DNA of 59,775 nt from a bacterium (GTDB lineage Bacteria > UBP6 > UBA1177 > JAKLFG01): NCBI GenBank assembly GCA_022711315.1, contig JAKLFG010000010.1:1-59775 (forward strand), read 5' to 3'. Both the position numbers and the translations under genes were made by a program. This document shows positions 1,958 to 40,797 of the stretch, piece after piece; the first letter of the stretch is position 1, and each line of letters starts with the position of its first letter. Under the pieces are notes generated by a model that was given only the letters and a program-made list of their open reading frames with translations, did no database searches and had not been told where the DNA came from.

Positions 1958-2833
1958 ATGTTGACGATACTGCGACTCCTGCGCGTCCACCAGTGGGTCA
2001 AGAACCTGCTCATTTTCTTCCCTCTTTTCTTCGCCCTTAAATTCACCGACACCGGACTTCTCGTAAGGGCTTGCGCCGCCTTCATCTTCTTCTCGCTCAC
2101 CGCGAGCGCCGTCTATGTCGTCAACGATCTGCGCGATGTTGCGGAGGACCGCGAACACCCCGACAAACGCCGCCGCCCCCTCGCGAGCGGTGCGATATCG
2201 CACATCGCCGCCGTATTCATCGCCGCGACACTGCTACTCGCCGGGCTCGGCGGCGCCTCGTTCTACAACAAACAACTTTTCCTCATACTCGCCATCTACT
2301 GCGTGCTCAATGTCCTCTACTCGATGCTGTTCAAACGGATAGCGCTCCTCGACATCTTCGTCATCGCGACCGGGTTCCTGCTCCGGCTCATCGCCGGCAC
2401 CGAATACGCGGGACTCGCCGGCGTCCACCCGTCACAGTGGATCATCGTGATGACCTTCCTGCTCGCGCTGTTCCTCGCCTTAGCCAAACGGCGCGACGAT
2501 GTCCTGCTCGCCGGGGAAGGGAAAAAGACGCGGCACGCCGTCCACGGCTACAATCTCGAATTCATCAACAGCGCGCTCGCGGTCATGACCGCCGTCATCA
2601 TACTCGCCTACATCCTTTACACGATGGACCCGGCGGTCGCCCGCCACTTCGGGTCCGACAAGATATACCTGACGGTGATATTCGTCATACTGGGACTCTT
2701 CCGCTACCTGCAACTGACGCTTGTGTACAAGAAAAGCAGTCAGCCGACCGACCTGTTACTGCGCGACCGGTTCCTCCAACTCACGATACTCGGCTGGATA
2801 GCGCTGTTCGTGATACTCGTCTATCTGAGGTGA
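1958..2833 (+). CDS. UbiA-family decaprenyl-phosphate phosphoribosyltransferase-like protein
   Basis: A 291-residue polytopic membrane protein. It matches the 5-phosphoribose-1-diphosphate:decaprenyl-phosphate phosphoribosyltransferase branch of UbiA (mycobacterial Rv3806c type). It opens with RVHQWVKN, carries the first Asp-rich motif NDLRDVAEDREHPDKRRRP at about residues 56-74, and has a second conserved segment LAKRRDD near residue 178. Known members transfer ribose-5-phosphate from PRPP to a polyprenyl phosphate at the inner membrane. The ATG at 1958 was chosen because it has a good ribosome binding site and the family N-terminus begins there; codons upstream in frame overlap the previous gene. 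An SDR gene starts 4 nt after the stop, and prs, the PRPP synthase, is 2.2 kb downstream. Donor and acceptor specificity is inferred from family. Confidence 0.8.
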   Translation: MLTILRLLRVHQWVKNLLIFFPLFFALKFTDTGLLVRACAAFIFFSLTASAVYVVNDLRDVAEDREHPDKRRRPLASGAISHIAAVFIAATLLLAGLGGASFYNKQLFLILAIYCVLNVLYSMLFKRIALLDIFVIATGFLLRLIAGTEYAGLAGVHPSQWIIVMTFLLALFLALAKRRDDVLLAGEGKKTRHAVHGYNLEFINSALAVMTAVIILAYILYTMDPAVARHFGSDKIYLTVIFVILGLFRYLQLTLVYKKSSQPTDLLLRDRFLQLTILGWIALFVILVYLR

Positions 2834-2837
2834 TGCG

Positions 2838-3875
2838 ATGAAGGTGCTGATCACCGGCGGCGCCGGGTTCTTCGGGCTCCACATGACCCGCAAATGTGTG
2901 GCCGAAGGCGACGCCGTGACGCTCCTCGACATCGCCGAATATCACGCCGGGGAATACGACCCGCAGGTGACACTGGTCCGCGGCGATGTGCGCGACACGG
3001 CGAAGATGAGCGACCTCATCGCGGCCACCGATGTGGTCATCCACGCGGCGGCGGCGCTCCCGCTCGAATCGAAAAAAGAGATATTCTCGACCAATGTCGA
3101 CGGGACACGGAATGTCCTTGATCTCGCGCTGAAGCACCATACCAAGCGGTTCGTCTTCATCAGTTCGACCGCCGTCTACGGCGTTCCCGATCATCACCCG
3201 CTCTACGAGACCGACGAGAGGATCGGCGTCGGCCCCTACGGCGAGTCGAAGATAGCGGCCGAGGTGCACTGCGAGGAGGTTCGCGCACAGGGGCTGTATG
3301 TCACGGTCATCCGCCCCAAGACCTTCATCGGCACCCACCGGCTCGGTGTTTTCCAGATACTCTACAACTGGATCGAGGAAGGCCACAAGATACCGGTCAT
3401 CGGCAACGGGAAGAACCGCTACCAACTGCTCGAGGTCGACGACCTCTGCGACGCGGTGTTCAAGGCGTACCGCCACCCCGGCGCCGAGGCGAACGATGTG
3501 TTCAATGTCGGGTGCGCCGAGTTCCGTACCATCAACGAGGATGTCGGGGCGCTCTGCGAACACGCGAAAAGCGGGGCGCGGGTCATGCACACGCCGGTGT
3601 GGCTGGTGATCCCGGCGCTCCAACTGTTCGAGGCGCTGAACCTGTCGCCGCTCTACAAATGGGTCTACGGCACGGCACACAAGGACAGTTTCGTATCGAT
3701 AGAAAAGGCGCAGAAGGTGCTCGGCTGGCAGCCACGCTACAGTGAATCGGAGGCGCTCATTCGCTCCTACCGGTGGTATCTCGACAACAAGGGAACGATC
3801 GCGAAGGAGACCGGGACCTCCCACCGGGTCGCGTGGAAACAAGGCATACTCGCGCTTTTCAAAAGGTTCTTATGA
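2838..3875 (+). CDS. NAD(P)-dependent epimerase/dehydratase (extended SDR)
   Basis: 345 residues. The Rossmann nucleotide-binding motif GGAGFFG is at residues 7-13. The catalytic Ser/Thr lies in FISSTAVYG (about 108-115) and the Tyr-Lys pair in PYGESK (Y134, K138). The fold and length fit nucleotide-sugar or polyprenyl-sugar epimerases and dehydratases. It begins 4 nt after the phosphoribosyltransferase stop, so the two are surely co-transcribed. In mycobacteria the product of that transferase is epimerised to decaprenyl-phosphoryl arabinose by an oxidase plus an SDR (DprE1/DprE2). This gene could play the reductase part, but it could equally be an unrelated sugar-nucleotide enzyme. The substrate cannot be read from sequence. 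Confidence 0.75.
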   Translation: MKVLITGGAGFFGLHMTRKCVAEGDAVTLLDIAEYHAGEYDPQVTLVRGDVRDTAKMSDLIAATDVVIHAAAALPLESKKEIFSTNVDGTRNVLDLALKHHTKRFVFISSTAVYGVPDHHPLYETDERIGVGPYGESKIAAEVHCEEVRAQGLYVTVIRPKTFIGTHRLGVFQILYNWIEEGHKIPVIGNGKNRYQLLEVDDLCDAVFKAYRHPGAEANDVFNVGCAEFRTINEDVGALCEHAKSGARVMHTPVWLVIPALQLFEALNLSPLYKWVYGTAHKDSFVSIEKAQKVLGWQPRYSESEALIRSYRWYLDNKGTIAKETGTSHRVAWKQGILALFKRFL

Positions 3876-3915
3876 ACACATATATTATTCATGTGAACAC
3901 ACGGTGGATCCTCTC

Positions 3916-5007
3916 ATGACCTCTACAACCATGCCTGTCCTTCGCATCGGCGACCTGACGATATCCCCTCCGATCATACAGGGCGCGATGGGCGTCCGCG
4001 TTTCACGGAGCGGCCTCGCGGCGGCCGTCGCCAACGAAGGGTGCGTCGGCACGATCGCGAGCGTGGGGCTCGGCGACTACGAGCACGCGTCAGACGCCAA
4101 CCTTAACACCGTCAGCAACGAAGCGCTCCGCGCCGAGATCCGGCAGGCGCGGGCCCTTGCGCCGACCGGCATCATCGGCGTCAATGTCATGGTGGTCCTT
4201 GACAACTTCCCCGGGCTGATCGGCGTCTGCGTCGAGGAAGAGGTGGATATGATCGTCTGCGGCTCCGGACTCCCGCTCGATCTGCCGAAATACCTGAACG
4301 GGAAGGACATCAAACTGGTGCCGATCGTCTCCTCGGCGCGCGCGCTCAACATAATCTGCCGCAAGTGGAAACAGCATTACGGCCGGCTCCCCGACGCCGT
4401 CATCGTCGAGGGACCGGAGGCGGGCGGCCATCTGGGCTATTCTTTCGACGAACTCCTCGATCACACCGCGCCGACGCTGGAACAACTGGTGACCGAACTG
4501 GTCGCCTTCACCCGGACGCTCGATCGCCCGATCCCGGTCATCGCGGCGGGAGGCATCTTCGACGGCGCCGACATCGCACGGTTCCTGAGACTCGGGGCCG
4601 CCGGCGTCCAGATGGCGACCCGCTTCGTCTGCACCGACGAGTGCGATGTGCACCCCAGCTTCAAACAGGCCTATCTTGACGCCGGAAAGGAAGATACCAT
4701 CATCATCAACAGTCCGGTGGGACTGCCCGGCCGCGTCATCAAGAGCGCCTTCGTCGACCGGGTCCATGCCGGAGGCGAGGTCCCCTTCATCTGTCGGCAC
4801 CACTGCCTGCGGACCTGCGACCCGAACACGGTCCCCTACTGCATCGCAAAGGTGCTGGGCGACGCTTCGCGCGGCGATCTTAACAATGCGTTCGTCTTCG
4901 CCGGATCGAACGCCTACCGGTGCACCGAGATCGTTCCGGTGAAAAAACTTATCGCGCAACTGTCGGCGGAGCTGCTCGCCGAACTGTCGGGCCCCGACCA
5001 TGCGTGA
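3916..5007 (+). CDS. Nitronate monooxygenase-family FMN protein
   Basis: 363 residues from ATG 3916; ATG 3931 is an alternative and neither has a strong ribosome binding site. It is a TIM-barrel flavoprotein of the 2-nitropropane dioxygenase/nitronate monooxygenase family, which oxidises alkyl nitronates with FMN. Visible signatures are IIQGAMGV near the N-terminus, EGPEAGGHLG in the middle (with the conserved His), and the FMN-phosphate loop AAGGIFDG. The C-terminal part contains a cysteine cluster, CRHHCLRTC then C, seen in a subset of family members. The family is often misannotated and real substrates vary. It lies in the same orientation between the SDR gene and prs, so it may belong to the same transcription unit. 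Confidence 0.75.
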   Translation: MTSTTMPVLRIGDLTISPPIIQGAMGVRVSRSGLAAAVANEGCVGTIASVGLGDYEHASDANLNTVSNEALRAEIRQARALAPTGIIGVNVMVVLDNFPGLIGVCVEEEVDMIVCGSGLPLDLPKYLNGKDIKLVPIVSSARALNIICRKWKQHYGRLPDAVIVEGPEAGGHLGYSFDELLDHTAPTLEQLVTELVAFTRTLDRPIPVIAAGGIFDGADIARFLRLGAAGVQMATRFVCTDECDVHPSFKQAYLDAGKEDTIIINSPVGLPGRVIKSAFVDRVHAGGEVPFICRHHCLRTCDPNTVPYCIAKVLGDASRGDLNNAFVFAGSNAYRCTEIVPVKKLIAQLSAELLAELSGPDHA

Positions 5008-5053
5008 GACGATAACGGACCGCCCATAGATCTTAGGGAGAAGGAGTACGGCC

Positions 5054-6079
5054 ATGGAACAATCGCGCGGCAAACTGGGGATCATGACCTGCGGCTCGGG
5101 CAAGGCGTTCGCCGACCGGGTGGTGAAGCATGTCGAGTCGATATACGGCAAACGGCTCGCAGAAAGTGGTTTCAAATACCTGCTTTCGGAAGAGGTCCGT
5201 TTCGCCAACGGCGAACTCAAGACGGTCCTGCACGAACCGGTGCGCGGGTACGATCTCTACATCCTCCAACTGATGGACGACCCGCTCTCCCCGCATTCGG
5301 TCAATGACAACCTCATGGCGCTCGCGACCGCGGTCAACGCCGCCTACAACAGCGACCCGAACTCGGTCACCGCGGTCATCCCGCAGTTCCCCAACTCGCG
5401 GCAGGAGCGCCGCAAGGGACGCGAGAGTCTCACCGCAGCCATGGTGGCGCAGTTCCTCGAGGAATGCGGCGCGGGCCGCGTGCTCACGATAGACATCCAC
5501 GCCGAGGCCATCGTCGGGTTCTTCCGCAAGGCGCGGCTCGACAACCTGCACGCCTCGCGCCAGATCATCCACTACCTGCAGGAGAACAACCTCATATCGC
5601 CCGAAACGGTGGTGGTCGCCCCCGATGTCGGGTCGGCCGAGACCGCGCGGTTCTACAGCCGCGAACTCAAGCGCGACATGGCGATGATCGTCAAGGAACG
5701 CGACTATTCGAAGACCTCGACCGTCATATCGACGCGACTGGTCGGCAATGTGAAGGAACGCGACATCCTCATCATCGACGACATGATCGCGACCGGCGGC
5801 ACGCTCATCGCCGCCTGCCGCACGCTGAAGGAATTCGGGGCACGGCGCATCGATGTGGCCGCCACCTTCCCCTTCTTCAACGGCCCGGCGGCGCAGAATA
5901 TCGACGCGGCGTGGCACGAAGGCATCATCAACACGGTGGCCGGCACCAACGCGGTGTGGCACGGCGAGGAATTCGTCAAGAAGCATCCGTGGTACCGCGA
6001 GGTCGATGTGACGCGGCTGTTCGCCGAGGTCATTTACCGTATCAACCACATGAAGTCCATATCGGAACTGCTCGATTAA
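5054..6079 (+). CDS. prs: Ribose-phosphate pyrophosphokinase (PRPP synthase)
   Basis: 341 residues; it makes PRPP from ribose-5-phosphate and ATP in the cytosol. Visible family features are FANGEL, the ATP-binding region [15 protein letters not shown] (a divergent version of the usual RQDRK...REPISA), [24 protein letters not shown], and the PRPP-binding loop [11 protein letters not shown] near residue 240. It is slightly longer than the common 310-320 residues and clearly belongs to a divergent subgroup. A strong ggagaaggag ribosome binding site precedes the ATG. purC, which works downstream of PRPP in purine synthesis, follows 25 nt later. The PRPP-using UbiA enzyme lies upstream on the same strand. 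Confidence 0.88.
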
Positions 6080-6104: not shown

Positions 6105-6992
6105 ATGTTGCGTATGGAAAAGGTCGCCGGGCGCGACACCCTGATGGAAAGCGATATCCCGTTCCTGAAGGTATTCAAAAAAGGGAAGGTGCGCGAGGTC
6201 TACGAACTGGGCGAGTACCTGCTCATCATCGCCACCGACCGCCTGTCGGCCTTCGATGTGGTGATGAAGAGCGGCATCCCGCACAAGGGGGTCTACCTCA
6301 CCAAGCAGAGTTCGTTCTGGTTCAAATTCCTCAACCAGAAAGGGTATCTGACCCATTTCGTGACCGACGATATCGCCGAGATGGCGAAACTGACGGGCGA
6401 GAAACGGCTGTGCGATCTGCCGTGGCTCAAGGGGCGCGCGATGCTCGGCAAGAAGGCCGAACTCGTCCCGGTCGAGGCGGTCTGCCGCTTCCGCGTGTTC
6501 GGGTCGGCGGTACCGGCGCTCAAGGAGAAAAAATGGATCTGGGACGCCCCGGAGATCGACGGTGAGATCAAGGAGGGGGCGCTCATCAAGAACGGCCCGA
6601 TCTTCACCCCGACCGAGAAATCGGAGACCGACGACAAGATATCGTTCGAACAGATGGTGAAGATCGTCGGCGACAAAGGGCGCGCCGACGAGATCAAGGC
6701 GAAGACCGTCGAGATATTCAAACTGGTCAACGACCACGCGCAGAAGACCTTCAACTTCGAGATAGCCGACGGCAAGATAGAATGGGGTCTTTTCGGCGGC
6801 GAACTGATGCTCATCGACGAGACCTTCACGAGCGATTCGGCCCGCTTCATGCCCGACAAGTCAAAGGAATTCTTCCGCTCGTGGCTGAAGGACCACAACC
6901 TCAAAGGTCAGGCGGTCGCGCTCCCCGACGAGGTGGCCATGGCGGTGGCCGATCTTTACGCCGCGCAGTGTCGCGCGATGCGCATACTCTAA
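6105..6992 (+). CDS. purC: Phosphoribosylaminoimidazole-succinocarboxamide synthase
   Basis: 295 residues; SAICAR synthetase, which ligates aspartate to CAIR with ATP in de novo purine synthesis. Recognisable signatures are GKVREVYELG, the ATP/substrate motif DRLSAFDVVM, and LIDETFTSDSARF near residue 228. The size fits the longer, about 300-residue form rather than the 240-residue enterobacterial type. ATG 6105 is used; ATG 6114 in the same frame is possible. It follows prs closely and is probably co-transcribed, giving a PRPP/purine pair. Confidence 0.92.
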   Translation: MLRMEKVAGRDTLMESDIPFLKVFKKGKVREVYELGEYLLIIATDRLSAFDVVMKSGIPHKGVYLTKQSSFWFKFLNQKGYLTHFVTDDIAEMAKLTGEKRLCDLPWLKGRAMLGKKAELVPVEAVCRFRVFGSAVPALKEKKWIWDAPEIDGEIKEGALIKNGPIFTPTEKSETDDKISFEQMVKIVGDKGRADEIKAKTVEIFKLVNDHAQKTFNFEIADGKIEWGLFGGELMLIDETFTSDSARFMPDKSKEFFRSWLKDHNLKGQAVALPDEVAMAVADLYAAQCRAMRIL

Positions 6993-34614: not shown

Positions 34615-34733
34615 GTTGACCTCTCCGCGCGGTTCGCTATGATGTCGTCATGAAGTTCAGTCGGTGCGACATGGTCCGCGCGGCCGCCGCGCTTTTTTTC
34701 ACGCTCCTCTTCTTCGTCTGGGGCACCGCCGGG
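34615..34733 (+). repeat. 119-bp promoter/N-terminus cassette, copy 1
   Basis: 118 of 119 bases are identical to 38552-38670; the sole difference is G at 34644 versus A at 38581. It covers promoter, start codon and the first 28 codons, ends abruptly after the codons for GTAG, and the flanking sequences then diverge. Confidence 0.9.
34616..34643 (+). promoter_or_regulatory. Leaderless promoter of GT-C gene 1
   Basis: TTGACC (34616-34621), 16-nt spacer, TATGAT (34638-34643). Only 6 nt (GTCGTC) separate the -10 box from ATG 34650, and there is no Shine-Dalgarno, so transcription should start at or within a base of the A of ATG. Confidence 0.65.
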
Positions 34734-36863
34734 AAATTCTGGCGCCCGTTCCAACTCTATGTCCCCTGGTTCTACCTGCTCCTCGCCGGGCTGACGGCTA
34801 TCTTCCTCCTGCCGCCGCTCCGCGCCGCCGCCGTGGCGCTCTTTTCCCGTATCGTGCCGCGCCGCTATATCCTGTTCCCGCTTCTCGCCCTCTGCGTGAC
34901 GCTCCTCATCAACCGGCTGGTCTTTCAGGGACTCCCGCACATACAGGACAGCATCAACTACCTGTTCATGGCCGAGCAGTTCGCCGCGGGGCGGCTCGAC
35001 CACCCGATGCACCCGTTCTACGAGTTCTTCCGCTTCCTCTACCTCATACCGGACGGTGAAAAGATATATTCGCTCTTTCTCCCCGGTTATTCCCTTTTCC
35101 TCGTCCCCTTCGTGATGATCGGCGTCCCCTTCATCGTCAACCCGCTCCTGACCGCCGCCAATGTCGCGCTCGTCGGCCGCATCGCCGACGACCTCTACGG
35201 CCCGCGCGTATCGACCGCCGCGATGGCGCTCGCGATACTTTCGGTGTTTCTCATGGTGATGGGCGGCACCTTCATGGGGCACCCCTTCTGCGCCGCCCTG
35301 ACGCTCGGCACCGTCCTCTGTTTCCTCCGGGCCCGCCGCGAAGAAACGGGAAAGCGGGCGCTCCGCTACGCCGCCGCCGCCGGCTTCGCGCTCGGTTGGC
35401 TGGTCTTCACGCGGCCGCAGAACGCGCTTTTCCTCGCTTTGCCGCTCGCGCTTGCCGCGCTTGTAGAGATACGCCGCCGGGGGACGGTGCCGCGCGGACT
35501 TGTCCTCACCGCCGCGTTCTTGCCGTGGCTTGTCGCGCTCTTTTTATATAACGCCCACTACACCGGCGACCCGCTTCTGTTCAAGCAGGACCCCTATTTC
35601 AACTACAGCGAGCCGAACGAGTTCTGTCACCGTTTCGGCATCGGCCGCGGCTGTCCCCATTCGAACTGGACGGTGCTCCCCGAAGAAGGGCTCTCCTGGG
35701 GGCACGCCGCCTATGTCACCTACCGGCGGCTCTCGCCGCTCATCCTCAACACCTTCGGCCACCCGCTCCTGTTCCTGCTCATACCCTGCGCTTTTCTCTT
35801 CTACCGGTCCGAGCGACCGAAAAAGGCGCTTTTTCTCGCATCGCTGTTCCTCTTTTCGGCCGGCGGGTATTTCTTCTTCTACTTTGACGGCAATGTCTTC
35901 GGGCCCCGCTACTACTATGAAACGACCTTCTTCCTTGCCATACTCGCCGCGCTCGGACTCGTCGCGCTTTCCGACCGCATCGCCGCGACGCCCCGGCCGC
36001 ACCTCTTCGCCGCGCCGCTCGGCGGGCTTGTCGCCGCCGCCTATCTCTCGTTCGCCTTTATCGTGCTCCCCGACCTTCTCACCATCTATTCGCTCGGCTT
36101 CTGGAAGGTCGAGCGGTCGCTCTCGGCGGAGATCGAACGGCAGGGCATCCATAACGCGGTGGTCTTCATAGACCGCGAGGAACTCATCGGGTCCGGCTTC
36201 TCCGTGATGCGACACGACGATTGGGACCGGAACGATGTCATCTATGTCCGCGATCTCGGCGTCCGCCCGAACAGCGCCCTCATGCACTACTATGCGCCGC
36301 AGGGACGAAAGTTCTACCGCGCCCGCTACGAAAAGATAGAGAACAACGAACGACCGCCGGAGATAACGCCGCTGACCGACATCGAACTGCCGCCCAACTA
36401 TGTCGTCACCGAACTTGAGGACAAACTCTACCCGCTCACCGGCGCGCCCGACTACTGCAACCGGTATCCCAACCGGCCCGATCTCGACCGTTACAGCGCT
36501 CTGCCGCCCCCCGGCGAACTGGGCATCGGCTTTTCGAAAGGGGCACTCTTCTGCCGGTTCACCGCGCCGGGCCAATTCTACGACCTCGGCCAGCATCTCG
36601 CGGTCGCGGGGCGGTACTCGGTCGAATTCGTCGGGGTGACCGGTCCCGTGATGGGTGCCTTCCGCGTCCTCATCGACGGCCGCGAGGCCGGCCGCATCGA
36701 CTTCACCGGCGAACGGTACGAAAAGGTGACCCGCCGGATCGACGCCGATCTCGAAGCGGGGTCCCACCGCATACGGCTGGAACCGGAAACGAGCGGCCGC
36801 GAGGTCTATTTCCTGCTTGATCTTGTCGAGTTCTTCACCGACGCCGCGTCACGCCCCGAGTGA
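34650..36863 (+). CDS. GT-C-fold membrane glycosyltransferase, paralog 1
   Basis: 737 residues. The first 480 carry about eleven to thirteen hydrophobic helices. The first lumenal loop has QDSINYLFMAEQFAAGRL, resembling the acidic site of GT39/ArnT-like polyprenyl-phosphate-sugar transferases (Asp in an HIQDS context). Repeated GYSLF-like and YDGPR segments follow. The last 250 residues form a soluble periplasmic domain with RHDDWDRNDVIYVRDLG and a terminal beta-sandwich (AGRYSVEFVGVTGPVMG). GT-C enzymes use lipid-linked sugars and act on the periplasmic face. Paralog 2 (38587-40797) is similar along its whole length. The end overlaps the convergent UbiA gene by 15 nt. Donor and acceptor unknown. 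Confidence 0.8.
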   Translation: MKFSRCDMVRAAAALFFTLLFFVWGTAGKFWRPFQLYVPWFYLLLAGLTAIFLLPPLRAAAVALFSRIVPRRYILFPLLALCVTLLINRLVFQGLPHIQDSINYLFMAEQFAAGRLDHPMHPFYEFFRFLYLIPDGEKIYSLFLPGYSLFLVPFVMIGVPFIVNPLLTAANVALVGRIADDLYGPRVSTAAMALAILSVFLMVMGGTFMGHPFCAALTLGTVLCFLRARREETGKRALRYAAAAGFALGWLVFTRPQNALFLALPLALAALVEIRRRGTVPRGLVLTAAFLPWLVALFLYNAHYTGDPLLFKQDPYFNYSEPNEFCHRFGIGRGCPHSNWTVLPEEGLSWGHAAYVTYRRLSPLILNTFGHPLLFLLIPCAFLFYRSERPKKALFLASLFLFSAGGYFFFYFDGNVFGPRYYYETTFFLAILAALGLVALSDRIAATPRPHLFAAPLGGLVAAAYLSFAFIVLPDLLTIYSLGFWKVERSLSAEIERQGIHNAVVFIDREELIGSGFSVMRHDDWDRNDVIYVRDLGVRPNSALMHYYAPQGRKFYRARYEKIENNERPPEITPLTDIELPPNYVVTELEDKLYPLTGAPDYCNRYPNRPDLDRYSALPPPGELGIGFSKGALFCRFTAPGQFYDLGQHLAVAGRYSVEFVGVTGPVMGAFRVLIDGREAGRIDFTGERYEKVTRRIDADLEAGSHRIRLEPETSGREVYFLLDLVEFFTDAASRPE

Positions 36864-37700
36864 CGGGCCGAACTTCACCGCGAGAAAGACGAGTCCCGCC
36901 ACAGCGTACAGGATGCGGTACAGCCGCCGGTGCCGCAGGAAGTCGCCCTGCCCCGGCGCCGCGCGGAGCGACAGCGCGACCGCCGACGCCATCTGGAGGA
37001 GCGACGCCACGGCGAACGGCGCGAGGTGAGCGGGCGTCGCCATGCCGCGGAGCGCCGCGACGATGAGCAGCGCGAGGGCGGCGGCGCAGATGACGATGTG
37101 GAGCCGTATCGAGCCGGACGCGCCGTACCGGACCGCGCCACTCCGGATCCCCGCCGCGCGGTCAGCGTCGAGGTCTATCAGTTCGTGGTTGACATGACCG
37201 GCGCTCAGGATGAGCCCGAAATAGAGGGCGAGCGCAAGCGAGCGGACCCCGAGCTCCCCGAACATGAGCCACCCGATCTGGAACTGGACCGCGCCGCCGA
37301 GGATATGGAGCGCCGTCCCGGCGCGCGGGAGGTATTTCGCCCCGAAGCGGGGATAGGAATAGAGCGCCGACAGGATGAAAAGCGCCGCCGCGCAGGGTGC
37401 GGCGCGCCGCTCCACGAGCAGGAAGAGCGCGAGCGCGGCGATAAGCGACGCGGCCGCCACCGCCGGAGAGCGGTCGCCCGGCACGACCGTGAGTCGCGGG
37501 TTGGCGGCGTCGTCGGACGACCCGGCCCAACTGTTGAAGGCGTAGACCGAGAGCGTCACGAGGTACGACGCGAGGAAAAAGAGCGCCGGCCGCGCGCCGA
37601 AGAAGGCCCGCGCATCGGAAGCGGCGAAGAACGAGCCGACGAAGATGAAGCCCGCCACCAGGAACACCTCGGTGAATCGGTATGCGCGAAAGGTCCTCAT
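36849..37700 (-). CDS. UbiA-family prenyltransferase, second type
   Basis: 283 residues with about eight membrane helices. The two Asp-rich motifs are NSWAGSSDDAANPR (about 57-70) and NHELIDLDADRAAGIRS (about 168-184), as in UbiA-superfamily enzymes that prenylate aromatic or other acceptors. It differs from the phosphoribosyltransferase-like UbiA at 1958-2833, which has NDLRDVAEDR. The product is not predictable: quinone, chlorophyll-like or lipid synthesis are all possible. Its 3' end overlaps the GT-C paralog 1 stop. Confidence 0.75.
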   Translation of the reverse strand: MRTFRAYRFTEVFLVAGFIFVGSFFAASDARAFFGARPALFFLASYLVTLSVYAFNSWAGSSDDAANPRLTVVPGDRSPAVAAASLIAALALFLLVERRAAPCAAALFILSALYSYPRFGAKYLPRAGTALHILGGAVQFQIGWLMFGELGVRSLALALYFGLILSAGHVNHELIDLDADRAAGIRSGAVRYGASGSIRLHIVICAAALALLIVAALRGMATPAHLAPFAVASLLQMASAVALSLRAAPGQGDFLRHRRLYRILYAVAGLVFLAVKFGPSLGA

Positions 37701-37765
37701 GCGTCTCGTACCCGGACAGTTCCCTTAATAGACCGCGTAACGGCCGGTTTTGTTCCCGTCACGCC

Positions 37766-37793
37766 ACTCTACCCCGTGACGGTCAAAAAGCAA
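37766..37793 (-). promoter_or_regulatory. Promoter for the UbiA gene
   Basis: Minus-strand TTGCTT (37793-37788), 16-nt spacer, TAGAGT (37771-37766), matching the proS promoter in position and most bases. Confidence 0.5.
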
Positions 37794-37804
37794 TGCGGGG
37801 ATGA

Positions 37805-37832
37805 TTGACCTTCGGCCGCTCTTTGGTATGAT
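37805..37832 (+). promoter_or_regulatory. Leaderless promoter of the truncated GT-C remnant
   Basis: TTGACC (37805-37810), 16-nt spacer, TATGAT (37827-37832), then ATG after 6 nt at 37839. Spacing is identical to the promoters at 34616 and 38553. Confidence 0.6.
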
Positions 37833-37838
37833 GGCGAC

Positions 37839-37934
37839 ATGAAAGGGTCCCCTGGCGATCTTATGCGGCTTTTCTGCGCCGCCTTTTTTGTCGTGCTCTT
37901 CTTTGATCCTCCCCAACAAAAGTTAACAAACTAA
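37839..37934 (+). pseudogene. Truncated third GT-C paralog (5' remnant)
   Basis: A 31-codon ORF encoding MKGSPGDLMRLFCAAFFVVLFF plus nine more residues. It aligns with the start of both GT-C paralogs (MK-S--D--R---A-FF--LFF), and its promoter and leaderless ATG are spaced the same. After about codon 22 the similarity ends and AT-rich DNA with the next lipoprotein gene begins. The simplest reading is a GT-C gene cut down by an insertion or deletion. A functional small membrane peptide cannot be excluded. Confidence 0.6.
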
Positions 37935-37936
37935 TT

Positions 37937-38512
37937 ATGAGAAAAATACTTTCCCTCGGCTTACATCTGATCTTCTTTCTTTCCTGCAAAGAGTCCTGTC
38001 CGGAATTACAGGTCTGGGAAGCGTCCGACGACACGGTCCCCAACGAAGAGGTCTGTCCCGGCATGAGCCGCTACGCCGGGTTCAATGTCGCCGAGACCCT
38101 GAACTATCTCCAAAGCATACGCCTGACGCTGGAGAGCGTTCATTCCCTGATCCCGGAGGGCGCTCTTCCCGATGAGATCGTCTTCGGTCCCTTGAAAAAA
38201 TGCACATACGGCGACCCCCATATCCCGGCGGACGCCGGGGCGGACTGCATCCCACAGCCGTGGATGTTCTCCTTTTATGATCACGCGGGGAACGACCCCT
38301 TCCCCCATCTCATGTTGTCCATCGGACAGGCGGACGGGATACAGACAGCATCCTTGGGCGTACTCGTTGAACCGATCGTCCACTGGCACGATGATTTTCA
38401 TATCGAGACACAAAAAGGGTTCGCGCTCGGCGAGGTGCTCGAAGGCCAATTCTGTACCCTGAACTCCACTTCGTGTTATGCGTTCTCCTATCGGGTCGCA
38501 TCGAAGGAGTGA
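37937..38512 (+). CDS. Small lipoprotein of unknown function
   Basis: 191 residues with a short signal peptide, MRKILSLGLHLIFFLSC, whose FLSC is a lipobox. Cysteines recur (CPELQ, VCPGMS, KCTYGD, DCIPQP, FCTLNSTSCY) and probably form disulfides. Upstream 60 bp are AT-rich and composition is lower in GC than the flanking GT-C genes. It starts 2 nt after the truncated remnant, so it could be read from that promoter. No domain recognised. Confidence 0.65.
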   Translation: MRKILSLGLHLIFFLSCKESCPELQVWEASDDTVPNEEVCPGMSRYAGFNVAETLNYLQSIRLTLESVHSLIPEGALPDEIVFGPLKKCTYGDPHIPADAGADCIPQPWMFSFYDHAGNDPFPHLMLSIGQADGIQTASLGVLVEPIVHWHDDFHIETQKGFALGEVLEGQFCTLNSTSCYAFSYRVASKE

Positions 38513-38551
38513 ATATCTCGGAACGGTTCGTCGGTCATATTTTTCCTTCCT

Positions 38552-38670
38552 GTTGACCTCTCCGCGCGGTTCGCTATGATATCGTCATGAAGTTCAGTCG
38601 GTGCGACATGGTCCGCGCGGCCGCCGCGCTTTTTTTCACGCTCCTCTTCTTCGTCTGGGGCACCGCCGGG
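38552..38670 (+). repeat. 119-bp promoter/N-terminus cassette, copy 2
   Basis: The counterpart of 34615-34733 with a single mismatch. Similarity drops sharply beyond both ends of the cassette. Confidence 0.9.
38553..38580 (+). promoter_or_regulatory. Leaderless promoter of GT-C gene 2
   Basis: TTGACC (38553-38558), 16-nt spacer, TATGAT (38575-38580), 6 nt to ATG 38587; same as copy 1 apart from one base outside the hexamers. Confidence 0.65.
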
Positions 38671-40797
38671 CGGTTCTGGACGCCGCTCGCGGTCTATGCC
38701 CCCTCCTTCCATCTTCTTCTCGCGGGGATCGTCGTCGCCCTGCTGTTGTTCCGCGCCCCTCTGCGCCGCATACTCCCGCCGTTCCGCGACGCCGCCGTCG
38801 CGCGCCGCTATCTCCTGTTCCCGCTCGCCGCCTTCGCCGCGACACTGCTCATCGGGCTTCTCGTCTTTCAGGGGCTCCCCCACATACAGGACGGCATCCA
38901 CTACCGCATGATGGCCGACCAGTTGGCGCACGGCCGGATGGATCACCCGATGCACCCGCACTACGAATTCTTCCGCTTCCTCTACCTCATCCCCGACGGC
39001 GAACGGATAGCGTCGCTGTTCCTCCCCGGCTATCCCCTCTTCCTCGCCCCGTTCGCCCTTTTCGGCGTCACGTTCCTCGCCAACCCGCTGCTCACCGCCG
39101 CCAATGTCGCGATCGCCGGCCGCATCGCCGACGACCTCTACGGCCCCCGCGTATCGGCCGCCGCGATGGCGCTTGCGCTCCTTTCCCCCTTCCTCATGAT
39201 CATGGGCGGCACCGCGATGGCGCACCCCTTCTGCGCCTTCCTGACGCTGACCGCCGTCCTGTTCTTCCTGCGGGCCCGCCGCGAAGGGAGCGGGAAACGG
39301 GCGCTCATACTTTCCGCGGTCGCCGGCTTCGCGCTCGGCTGGCTCGCCTTCTGCCGCCCGCAGAACGCCTTCCTGCTCGCCCTGCCGCTCGCGCTCGCGG
39401 CGCTTTTCGAGATCCGCCGCCGGGGCACCGTGCCGCGCGGGCTTGCGCTCACCGCCGCCTTCCTGCCGTGGCTTTTTGTCCTGCTCCTCCATAACGCCCA
39501 CTACACCGGCGACATCCTGACGCTCCGGCAGGATATCTATTTCAACTACAGCGAGCCGAACGATGGCTGTTTCGGGCTCGGGCTCGGCCGCGCCTGTCCC
39601 AACGCGACCTGGCGGCCGCTCCCCGACGACGGCTTCACGCTCACCGCCGCGGTCGTCGTGACCTACCACCGGCTCGCGCCGCTCATCGCCAATACGCTCG
39701 GTCACCCGCTCCTGTTCCTGCTCATCCCCTGCGCTTTCCTGCTCTCTCGCGGTGGACGGATCAGGCGGGAACTGTTCCTCGGCGGGCTTTTCCTCGCGAC
39801 CGTCGGCGGGCATTTCCTCTACTATTTCGACGGCAATGTCTTCGGCCCGCGCTACTATTACGAGACCGCCTTCTTCCTCATGATACTCGCCGCGTTCGGT
39901 CTGGTCTCGCTCGCCGACCGCATCGCCGCCGCGCGCCGGCCGCACCTCTTCGCCGCGCCGCTCGGCGGCTTTGTAGCCGCCGCGTACCTGTTCACCGCCG
40001 TCGCGATACTCCCGCCGCTCTTCGATTCCTACGCCTTCGGGTTCTGGGGCGTCGGTCGCGCGCTCGCCGACGAGGCGGCGCGGCAGGGCATCCACAACGC
40101 GGTCGTCTTCATACAGCCCGAACAGTACATCGGGTCGGGGCTCGCCGCGATGCGCCACGACGACTGGGACCGCAACGACATCGTCTATGTCCGCGATCTC
40201 GGCGACCGCCCGAACAGCGCCCTCATGCATCACTACGCGCCGCAGGGGAGGAAATTCTACCGCGCCCTTTTCACCGACATACGGACCGCGACGGTGCCAC
40301 CGCTCATCACGCCGCTGGCGGGACCCGACCTGCCGCCGAACTATCTCGTCGCCGAGATGGAGGACAAACACTACCCGCTCCGCGGCATTCCCGATTACTG
40401 CAACGAATATCCGAACCGGAGCGACCTCTCAACATATGTATCCTTCCCGCCGCCCGAACGCATCGGGGTCGGGTTCTCCAAGCGGGCTTTTTTCTGCCGG
40501 TTCACCGCACCGGGGCAATTCTACGAGTTCGGCCAGCAGTTCTTTCTCGCGGGGCGCTACGCCATCGATATCGTCGGGGTGACCGGCCCCGAGATGGGGG
40601 CCTTCCGGGTGCTCATCGACGACCGCGAGGTCGGCCGCGTCGATTTCACCGGCGAACGGTACGAGAAGGTGATACGGCAGGTCGAGGCGACGGTCGCGGC
40701 GGGTTTCCGCCGCATACGGCTCGAGCCGGAGGACACCGCGCGCGGCACCTATTTCCTGCTCGATCTTATGGAGTTCTTCCGCCGTCCGGAGGAGTAG
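38587..40797 (+). CDS. GT-C-fold membrane glycosyltransferase, paralog 2
   Basis: 736 residues, alignable from end to end with the protein at 34650-36863. The first 28 residues are identical, then divergent (AGRFWTPLAVYAPSFH against AGKFWRPFQLYVPWFY). The first-loop acidic motif is IQDGIHYRMMADQLAHGRM. Shared landmarks include HPMHP.YEFFRFLYLIPDGE, NPLLTAANVA, the YFDGNVFGPRYYYET loop, RHDDWDRND and PNSALMH.YAPQGRKFYRA. The periplasmic C-terminal domain is kept. The two probably use the same lipid-linked donor on related acceptors; both are inferences. It is convergent with guaB. Confidence 0.8.
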   Translation: MKFSRCDMVRAAAALFFTLLFFVWGTAGRFWTPLAVYAPSFHLLLAGIVVALLLFRAPLRRILPPFRDAAVARRYLLFPLAAFAATLLIGLLVFQGLPHIQDGIHYRMMADQLAHGRMDHPMHPHYEFFRFLYLIPDGERIASLFLPGYPLFLAPFALFGVTFLANPLLTAANVAIAGRIADDLYGPRVSAAAMALALLSPFLMIMGGTAMAHPFCAFLTLTAVLFFLRARREGSGKRALILSAVAGFALGWLAFCRPQNAFLLALPLALAALFEIRRRGTVPRGLALTAAFLPWLFVLLLHNAHYTGDILTLRQDIYFNYSEPNDGCFGLGLGRACPNATWRPLPDDGFTLTAAVVVTYHRLAPLIANTLGHPLLFLLIPCAFLLSRGGRIRRELFLGGLFLATVGGHFLYYFDGNVFGPRYYYETAFFLMILAAFGLVSLADRIAAARRPHLFAAPLGGFVAAAYLFTAVAILPPLFDSYAFGFWGVGRALADEAARQGIHNAVVFIQPEQYIGSGLAAMRHDDWDRNDIVYVRDLGDRPNSALMHHYAPQGRKFYRALFTDIRTATVPPLITPLAGPDLPPNYLVAEMEDKHYPLRGIPDYCNEYPNRSDLSTYVSFPPPERIGVGFSKRAFFCRFTAPGQFYEFGQQFFLAGRYAIDIVGVTGPEMGAFRVLIDDREVGRVDFTGERYEKVIRQVEATVAAGFRRIRLEPEDTARGTYFLLDLMEFFRRPEE

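Follow-up and report, generated by a model that had tools for sequence, protein, structure and literature searches.

A two-enzyme oxidation–reduction is usually presented as the route to lipid-linked arabinofuranose, and the enzymes concerned, the oxidase DprE1 and the reductase DprE2, a classical-type short-chain dehydrogenase/reductase (SDR), are prominent drug targets. The mycobacterial decaprenyl-phosphoryl arabinose pathway comprises the decaprenyl-phosphate phosphoribosyltransferase (DPPRS) Rv3806c, Rv3807c, DprE1, DprE2 and the Emb/Aft glycosyltransferases of the C fold (GT-C). Another arrangement, that of Citrobacter youngae O2, is described in PMC11127046: it includes ORF15, a polyprenyl-phosphate phosphoribosyltransferase (PPPRS) with a HAD domain, the SDR ORF13, a MATE flippase and a GT136 GT-C enzyme, and genetics together with NMR show that one GalE-like SDR, ORF13, is enough to convert the ribofuranose side chain into a xylofuranose one. 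Here we describe a stretch of 59,775 nucleotides (the window; contig JAKLFG010000010.1 of assembly GCA_022711315.1) from a bacterium of the UBP6 lineage, in which the gene for a UbiA-family protein (positions 1958-2833, + strand, 291 residues) is followed by that for an extended SDR (2838-3875, + strand, 345 residues). With the mycobacterial pathway the locus has the family of the first enzyme in common, but the genomes of the window's order have an extended SDR in place of DprE1 and DprE2. With C. youngae O2 it shares a UbiA-type PPPRS and one GalE-like SDR (TGxxGxxG, YxxxK) without DprE1 or DprE2, and some members of the UbiA–SDR group also carry GT-C and flippase genes; it differs in that a separate gene usually encodes the phosphatase, whose family varies, and that the pair is often unlinked (PMC11127046).

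Since a UbiA protein and a GalE-type SDR occur without DprE1 and DprE2, as in C. youngae O2, we propose the SDR as the epimerase of the pathway. Taking together the protein families, the UbiA–SDR linkage and co-occurrence, the missing DprE1 and DprE2 matches and the mutual exclusion of SDR and DprE1, all of which were computed directly, we consider it reasonably probable that UbiA and the SDR make a membrane-lipid-linked pentose from phosphoribosyl pyrophosphate (PRPP), a single NAD-dependent SDR replacing the DprE1–DprE2 couple. What is conserved is UbiA together with a GalE-fold SDR, with a phosphatase of varying family and sometimes GtrA or GT-C genes. In a literature search that left most subscription journals outside, the pairing of such an SDR with UbiA was not found described beyond PMC11127046.

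The four genes that the original prediction had grouped as an island lie in the claimed order and in one orientation on the + strand (1958-6079), with 4, 40 and 46 bases between UbiA, SDR, NMO-family gene and PRPP synthase. The UbiA protein (PF01040) passes the NCBIfam model PRK12324.1-2 'decaprenyl-phosphate phosphoribosyltransferase' with 245 bits against a cut-off of 234, and its best PDB match is the DPPRS 8j8j (E 3e-36). The NDxxDxxxD and KR motifs are aligned, NDLRDVAEDREHPDKRRRP of the window protein standing against NDVRDVEADREHPTKRFRP of 8j8j; the N, D, D and D of loop II are kept (NDLRDVAED versus NDVRDVEAD in 8j8j), and the Glu of loop IV is replaced by Asp. For the C. youngae enzyme, PMC11127046 reports that mutating the N and D residues of the motif abolished in vitro activity. 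The predicted PRPP:polyprenyl-phosphate phosphoribosyltransferase-like UbiA with a linked SDR is borne out by the model, the PDB match, the motif and the linkage, with use of PRPP and polyprenyl phosphate as its putative activity. Two sibling models of the same name were not passed (191 of 207 and 149 of 474 bits), and the SDR also matches the HpnA model (below its cut-off) and the 3-beta-HSD model; both observations would suit a UbiA that is not a phosphoribosyltransferase and makes another isoprenoid lipid, oxidised by the SDR in the manner of sterol or hopanoid dehydrogenases. We regard this explanation as improbable, because PRK12324.1-2 is passed, a DPPRS is the best PDB match, the motif is kept, phosphatase and GT-C genes are among the neighbours, and the closest UbiA relatives sit in sets with DprE1 and DprE2.

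The last point concerns UbiA relatives from genomes outside the order: of the six closest, four lie in such sets (L246-L249), where UbiA stands directly in the DprE1/DprE2 set in genomes G119 and G360, and one gene separates it from DprE1 in G345 and G230. As to the remaining two, DprE1 is on a different contig in G267 and missing from G310. A quick UbiA tree, which included long-branched rows, needs three changes of partner, two of them forced by starred branches. In a more careful tree of 34 of the 42 rows (L060, L063, L177, L193, L206, L243, L244 and L261 dropped; L262, from G234, is in neither tree), the UbiAs of the order join those of five DprE1 genomes with support 100/100, apart from the UbiAs of other SDR genomes. 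As this tree allows a single change of partner (support 73/81), repeated partner swapping is not shown.

In the SDR (Epimerase, PF01370), residues T6, G7, G10, D31, S109, T111, Y134 and K138 are invariant among 48 aligned sequences, of which the window's is one, and at least 90% of these keep G13. The second strand ends in an Asp, a typical feature of SDRs that use NAD. The structure model (pLDDT 89.7) matches UDP-sugar 4-epimerases and 4,6-dehydratases (Foldseek and VIA), with VIA Z of 32-35 and rmsd of 2.2-3.3 Å over 290-316 residues; identity to GalE-type structures is about 20-28%. With GalE and related extended SDRs the protein shares the fold, the catalytic Ser/Thr, Tyr and Lys and the Asp ending the second strand, whereas a conserved C-terminal tail and UbiA as genomic partner set it apart. 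Most epimerase matches stop near residue 320; the tail (about 320-345, HRxxWxQGILxxxK) goes beyond them, contains a short helix in the model and might contact the membrane. As for DprE2, with which a structural comparison had been suggested, the window protein is an extended, GalE-type SDR, whereas DprE2 is a short classical one, with a model of 252 positions. Motifs, model and the linkage and co-occurrence with UbiA make the window protein a candidate single-enzyme polyprenyl-phosphoryl ribose epimerase.

Co-occurrence was surveyed in 366 genomes (SDR at E<=1e-50, UbiA at E<=1e-20, DprE1 by NF053785 at E<=1e-40), with SDR found in 49, UbiA in 156 and DprE1 in 31; 25 of the genomes belong to the window's order. 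Among the 341 genomes outside the order, 26 have the SDR, 132 UbiA and 31 DprE1. Every one of the 26 SDR genomes has UbiA, against a base rate of 132/341 (Fisher 4e-12; 21 family-level groups), the SDR being only 35-37% identical in four of them. UbiA is likewise present in 27 of the 31 DprE1 genomes (8e-9). SDR and DprE1 were found together in no genome, against 5.3 expected among UbiA-bearing genomes (p 0.001).

The original prediction also depended on the window's genome holding no DprE1 elsewhere, and none was found: a DprE1 hidden in the rest of the genome was rejected, as there are only two FAD_binding_4 loci, no match to ALO, the second domain of DprE1 (PF04030, 0), and no full-length match. 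Since this genome (2.67 Mb in 110 contigs) is 83% complete, the argument from absence rests on its relatives. A full-length DprE1 match (NF053785) was found in none of the 25 order genomes, five of which gave partial FAD-domain matches (best 3e-8). DprE2 (NF053786, E<=1e-25) was likewise found in 0 of the 25, its matches being in four of 61 genomes in all. The same models detect DprE1 and DprE2 next to UbiA in G034 and G055.

Within the order, 23 of the 25 genomes have the SDR, and UbiA and SDR are adjacent in nine of the 23, from six genera (G000-G004, G014, G015, G018 and G022). From a scan of genome contigs with the SDR alignment, the best 80 of at least 580 relatives were kept, 12 from the order and 68 from outside it. 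UbiA adjoins the SDR in 14 of these 80 loci (3/12 in the order, 11/68 outside), with one small gene in between in three of the 14; a weak fifteenth UbiA neighbour (L200, E 4e-7) was left out. By their record titles, the outside loci with an adjacent pair belong to WOR-1 (L184, L181, L185), Omnitrophota (L189), WOR-3 (L194), Patescibacteria groups (L211, L216, L231) and DPANN archaea (L177, L193, L206), some of the 11 being titled plain 'bacterium'. The locus maps are indicative, because the rough open reading frame (ORF) picker misses real genes (the SDR in L119, L123 and L127; UbiA in L036, L053, L057 and L262); key assignments rest on tblastn, hidden Markov model or Pfam matches.

SDR relatives occur on 16 plasmid records (identity 34-47% for the 15 listed), and UbiA relatives on 88 of 72,556. 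The lists of 15 SDR and 40 UbiA records have ten records in common, the two genes lying within 6 kb in nine and about 11.8 kb apart in one; in four of five such regions inspected, UbiA is within the stretch. The rhizobial plasmids L241, L242 and L266 carry a HAD-UbiA fusion (checked in NGR234), two SDRs, an SMR transporter, a GMC-type oxidoreductase and a 658-residue protein that is rich in hydrophobic stretches and has no Pfam match. On pMLa (L245), SDR, SMR and GMC genes are present and no UbiA is annotated in the stretch seen. If a pathway of this kind uses an unusual oxidase, the GMC flavoprotein of these plasmids could be a real candidate. A plasmid of the haloarchaeon Natronococcus (L243) combines SDR and UbiA with genes annotated as a DolP-mannose mannosyltransferase, a PHP-domain protein and a GT39 protein.

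The genes beside the pair vary by lineage. An inositol-monophosphatase-family gene (Inositol_P, PF00459) lies upstream of UbiA in G001, G002 and G004, with an FG-GAP gene between the two in the sister genome G001 (L033). A PAP2 gene overlaps UbiA in all three DPANN loci, a small HAD-like gene stands between UbiA and SDR in all three Patescibacteria loci, and in NGR234 a HAD domain is fused to UbiA. L211 and L216 have a GtrA gene after the SDR, and L177 also contains one; a PMT_2/TMEM260 GT-C protein adjoins the pair in L181 and L185, and an annotated SMR transporter gene overlaps the SDR gene on the rhizobial plasmids. The neighbour of the pair in L189 gave no Pfam match. Judged by family, these phosphatases, flippases and GT-C proteins would be the parts expected to make, flip and use a polyprenyl-phosphoryl pentose. 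As separate observations, a 381-residue protein, presumably resembling GDP-mannose 4,6-dehydratase by sequence, follows the pair in G022 (L067 2107-3252), and in several loci of genus g4 (L039, L040-L049, L052) UbiA is near ORFs that cluster with FabG-type reductase and beta-ketoacyl-ACP synthase (families checked in L039).

The scheme that we infer, which covers the substrate, the epimerisation, the inverted carbon, the role of the phosphatase and the final glycan, would run as follows. UbiA would transfer phosphoribose from PRPP onto polyprenyl phosphate, and a phosphatase of lineage-dependent family, for which the inositol-monophosphatase-family gene is the candidate in the window's close relatives, would remove the 5-phosphate. 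The GalE-like SDR with its bound NAD would then oxidise and re-reduce the sugar, inverting C2 to give arabinose or C3 to give xylose. Acting alone, it would stand in for both the DprE1 oxidase and the DprE2 reductase, with arabinose, xylose or another pentose as the product. The carrier that flips the lipid-linked pentose would be of the GtrA, SMR or MATE type, and a GT-C glycosyltransferase would then use the sugar. A narrower version, in which the SDR converts polyprenyl-phosphoryl ribose to the arabinose form by C2 inversion and does so widely in bacteria and archaea with interchangeable phosphatases, is put forward only tentatively, as less likely than not.

Several observations weigh against this scheme. 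In the 14 other SDR-bearing genomes of the order, all from g4, the SDR lies away from UbiA, in what looks like a housekeeping setting: an rsmI-type gene is near it in 13 of 13 loci fetched and a tsaD-type gene in eight, neighbour families having been scanned in one of them (L115). The order genomes G006 and G012 have UbiA without the SDR, and G021 (72% complete) has the SDR without UbiA. Outside the order, 57 of the 68 SDR loci lack an adjacent UbiA (within flanks of at most 6 kb), and the 132 UbiA genomes include 79 without either SDR or DprE1. In the 26 SDR-bearing outside genomes no adjacent pair was seen: of the 25 with a listed UbiA position, 24 have the two genes on different contigs and G182 has them about 42 kb apart; the co-occurrence statistics are, moreover, uncorrected for phylogeny. 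In the fold search, 4,6-dehydratases and decarboxylases rank level with the epimerases, and the likeness to ORF13 is one of arrangement and motifs by description, not of compared sequences. In G003 the 2.9 kb before UbiA contain no inositol-monophosphatase gene, and in L050 and L051 none is among the ORFs mapped next to UbiA. The window's pair has no flippase or GT-C gene beside it, none having been recognised among the neighbours scanned there and in L034.

The co-occurrence could also arise if the SDR made or epimerised a nucleotide sugar destined for the surface glycan that receives the UbiA-derived pentose, so that the two enzymes shared a glycan and not a substrate and the pentose stayed ribose, as in C. 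youngae O1. The closest solved folds are indeed nucleotide-sugar epimerases and dehydratases, several loci resemble polysaccharide clusters by eye, many UbiA genomes carry neither epimerase, and the two genes are unlinked in the survey genomes. Against it, the co-occurrence in 26 of 26 genomes and the exclusion of DprE1 point to the product of UbiA itself as the substrate, and the two genes are adjacent in unrelated groups whose other genes differ. We therefore hold action on a nucleotide sugar to be unlikely and prefer the SDR as epimerase of the lipid-linked pentose. The surroundings of UbiA were compared in 14 of the 26 outside genomes with the SDR (L252-L265); no recurring partner was seen, and L253 and L258 contain a further extended SDR matching the SDR profile. 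Ten neighbours were scanned for families: eight from SDR-bearing outside genomes gave PfkB twice, HisI and GT2, the rest being weak or without a match, and the other two, from L249 and L250, are HAD genes.

The third gene of the window locus (3916-5007, + strand, 363 residues; NMO family, PF03060) had been suggested to supply a flavoprotein of another fold in the place of the DprE1 oxidase. The closest PDB chains of this flavin mononucleotide (FMN) protein are 9jsy, 9lt5, 9k7h and 7e1q (E 5e-69), which we take to be chains of H. pylori FabX. PMC8626469 agrees with this and describes a [4Fe-4S] cluster on C300, C304, C308 and C320 of FabX and an active-site His182. In the window protein, C293, C297, C301, C309 and H172 occupy the aligned ligand and active-site places, so that it shares with FabX the sequence, the four Fe-S cysteines and the active-site His; it differs in that its gene adjoins UbiA–SDR, in one family, and its activity is putative (PMC8626469). 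The protein is annotated here as FabX-like, with FMN and a predicted [4Fe-4S] cluster.

The FMN gene directly follows the SDR in G000, G001, G002 and G004, that is in all four genomes of genera g1 and g2 and in four of the five genomes of the window's family; in the fifth, G003, the contig stops inside the SDR. This constant adjacency, 40 bases after the SDR gene in the window, and the missing DprE1 match would fit a DprE1-like split in which oxidation of polyprenyl-phosphoryl ribose falls to the FMN protein, a TIM-barrel flavoprotein, and the reduction to the SDR. Such a division of labour is, however, highly improbable. The sequence is of the FabX type, with the Fe-S cysteines and the His; a GalE-type SDR needs no partner oxidase; and the gene was found near the SDR in only two of the 80 kept SDR loci, both from the window's family. 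It was not found in any of 15 g4 genomes (E<=1e-20), 13 of which hold UbiA and SDR, and it lies away from UbiA in G006, G014, G018 and G022. With distant copies and the absence from g4, the gene is regularly apart from the cluster in relatives, which undercuts the prediction's link between flavoprotein and pathway. In the 341 outside genomes it is also independent of both partners: 28 of 68 genomes with an NMO-like gene have UbiA (base rate 132/341, p 0.68) and seven have the SDR (seven of the 26 SDR genomes, p 0.44). The flavoprotein was accordingly rejected as the oxidase on the FabX signature and the distribution. It would be an acyl-ACP dehydrogenase/isomerase of the FabX type that in one family came to lie next to the pair, and is most likely an unrelated fatty-acid enzyme, not a regular partner of the pathway. 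A second copy of the gene, about 50% identical, occurs elsewhere in G000, G001, G002 and G004 (in pieces in G001); this off-cluster paralogue (L129 8083-9555; L130 8680-10185) is extended at its C-terminus by about 130 residues, in which GYEQ/KR-type repeats recur and which the cluster copy lacks.

The fourth gene encodes a ribose-phosphate diphosphokinase (PRPP synthase; 5054-6079, + strand, 341 residues; Pribosyltran_N PF13793 and Pribosyl_synth PF14572), with 289 bits in TIGR01251 against a cut-off of 113, and is followed by purC (SAICAR synthetase; 6105-6992, + strand, 295 residues; SAICAR_synt PF01259). Within the order, these two genes adjoin the locus only in the two genomes of g1 and were not found around it in G002 and G004; outside the order, the distance between UbiA and a PRPP-synthase relative of 29-31% identity is 2.6 kb in G052 and 5.1 kb in G057. 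That PRPP synthase, which had been counted as a member of the island, is a conserved part of the pathway was thus rejected, since within the order it is a local neighbour in a single genus; purC, too, is only a local neighbour. Upstream of UbiA, an FG-GAP repeat protein is encoded (16-1890, + strand; PF01839), and the sequence before base 1 is missing because the window is one whole contig (G000:C2). The two GT-C proteins placed 29-35 kb away are probably those of 34650-36863 and 38587-40797, which gave no Pfam match and only weak matches to one and the same putative glycosyltransferase subfamily (34 and 39 bits against a cut-off of 200). Between these 737- and 736-residue proteins (window 34650-40797) lies the gene of a second UbiA-family protein (36849-37700, minus strand, PF01040), which passed no NCBIfam model.

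What takes the place of the flavoprotein solution is, in our estimate somewhat more probably than otherwise, a broadly spread one-enzyme alternative to DprE1–DprE2. If one ordinary epimerase does serve many lineages in this way, the prediction of pentofuranose glycans from genomes would change, and DPPRS-like genes without DprE1, which are frequent outside the order (105 of the 132 UbiA-bearing genomes), would not have to end the route at ribose. The co-occurrence and the mutual exclusion supply a directly testable substrate for the SDR.

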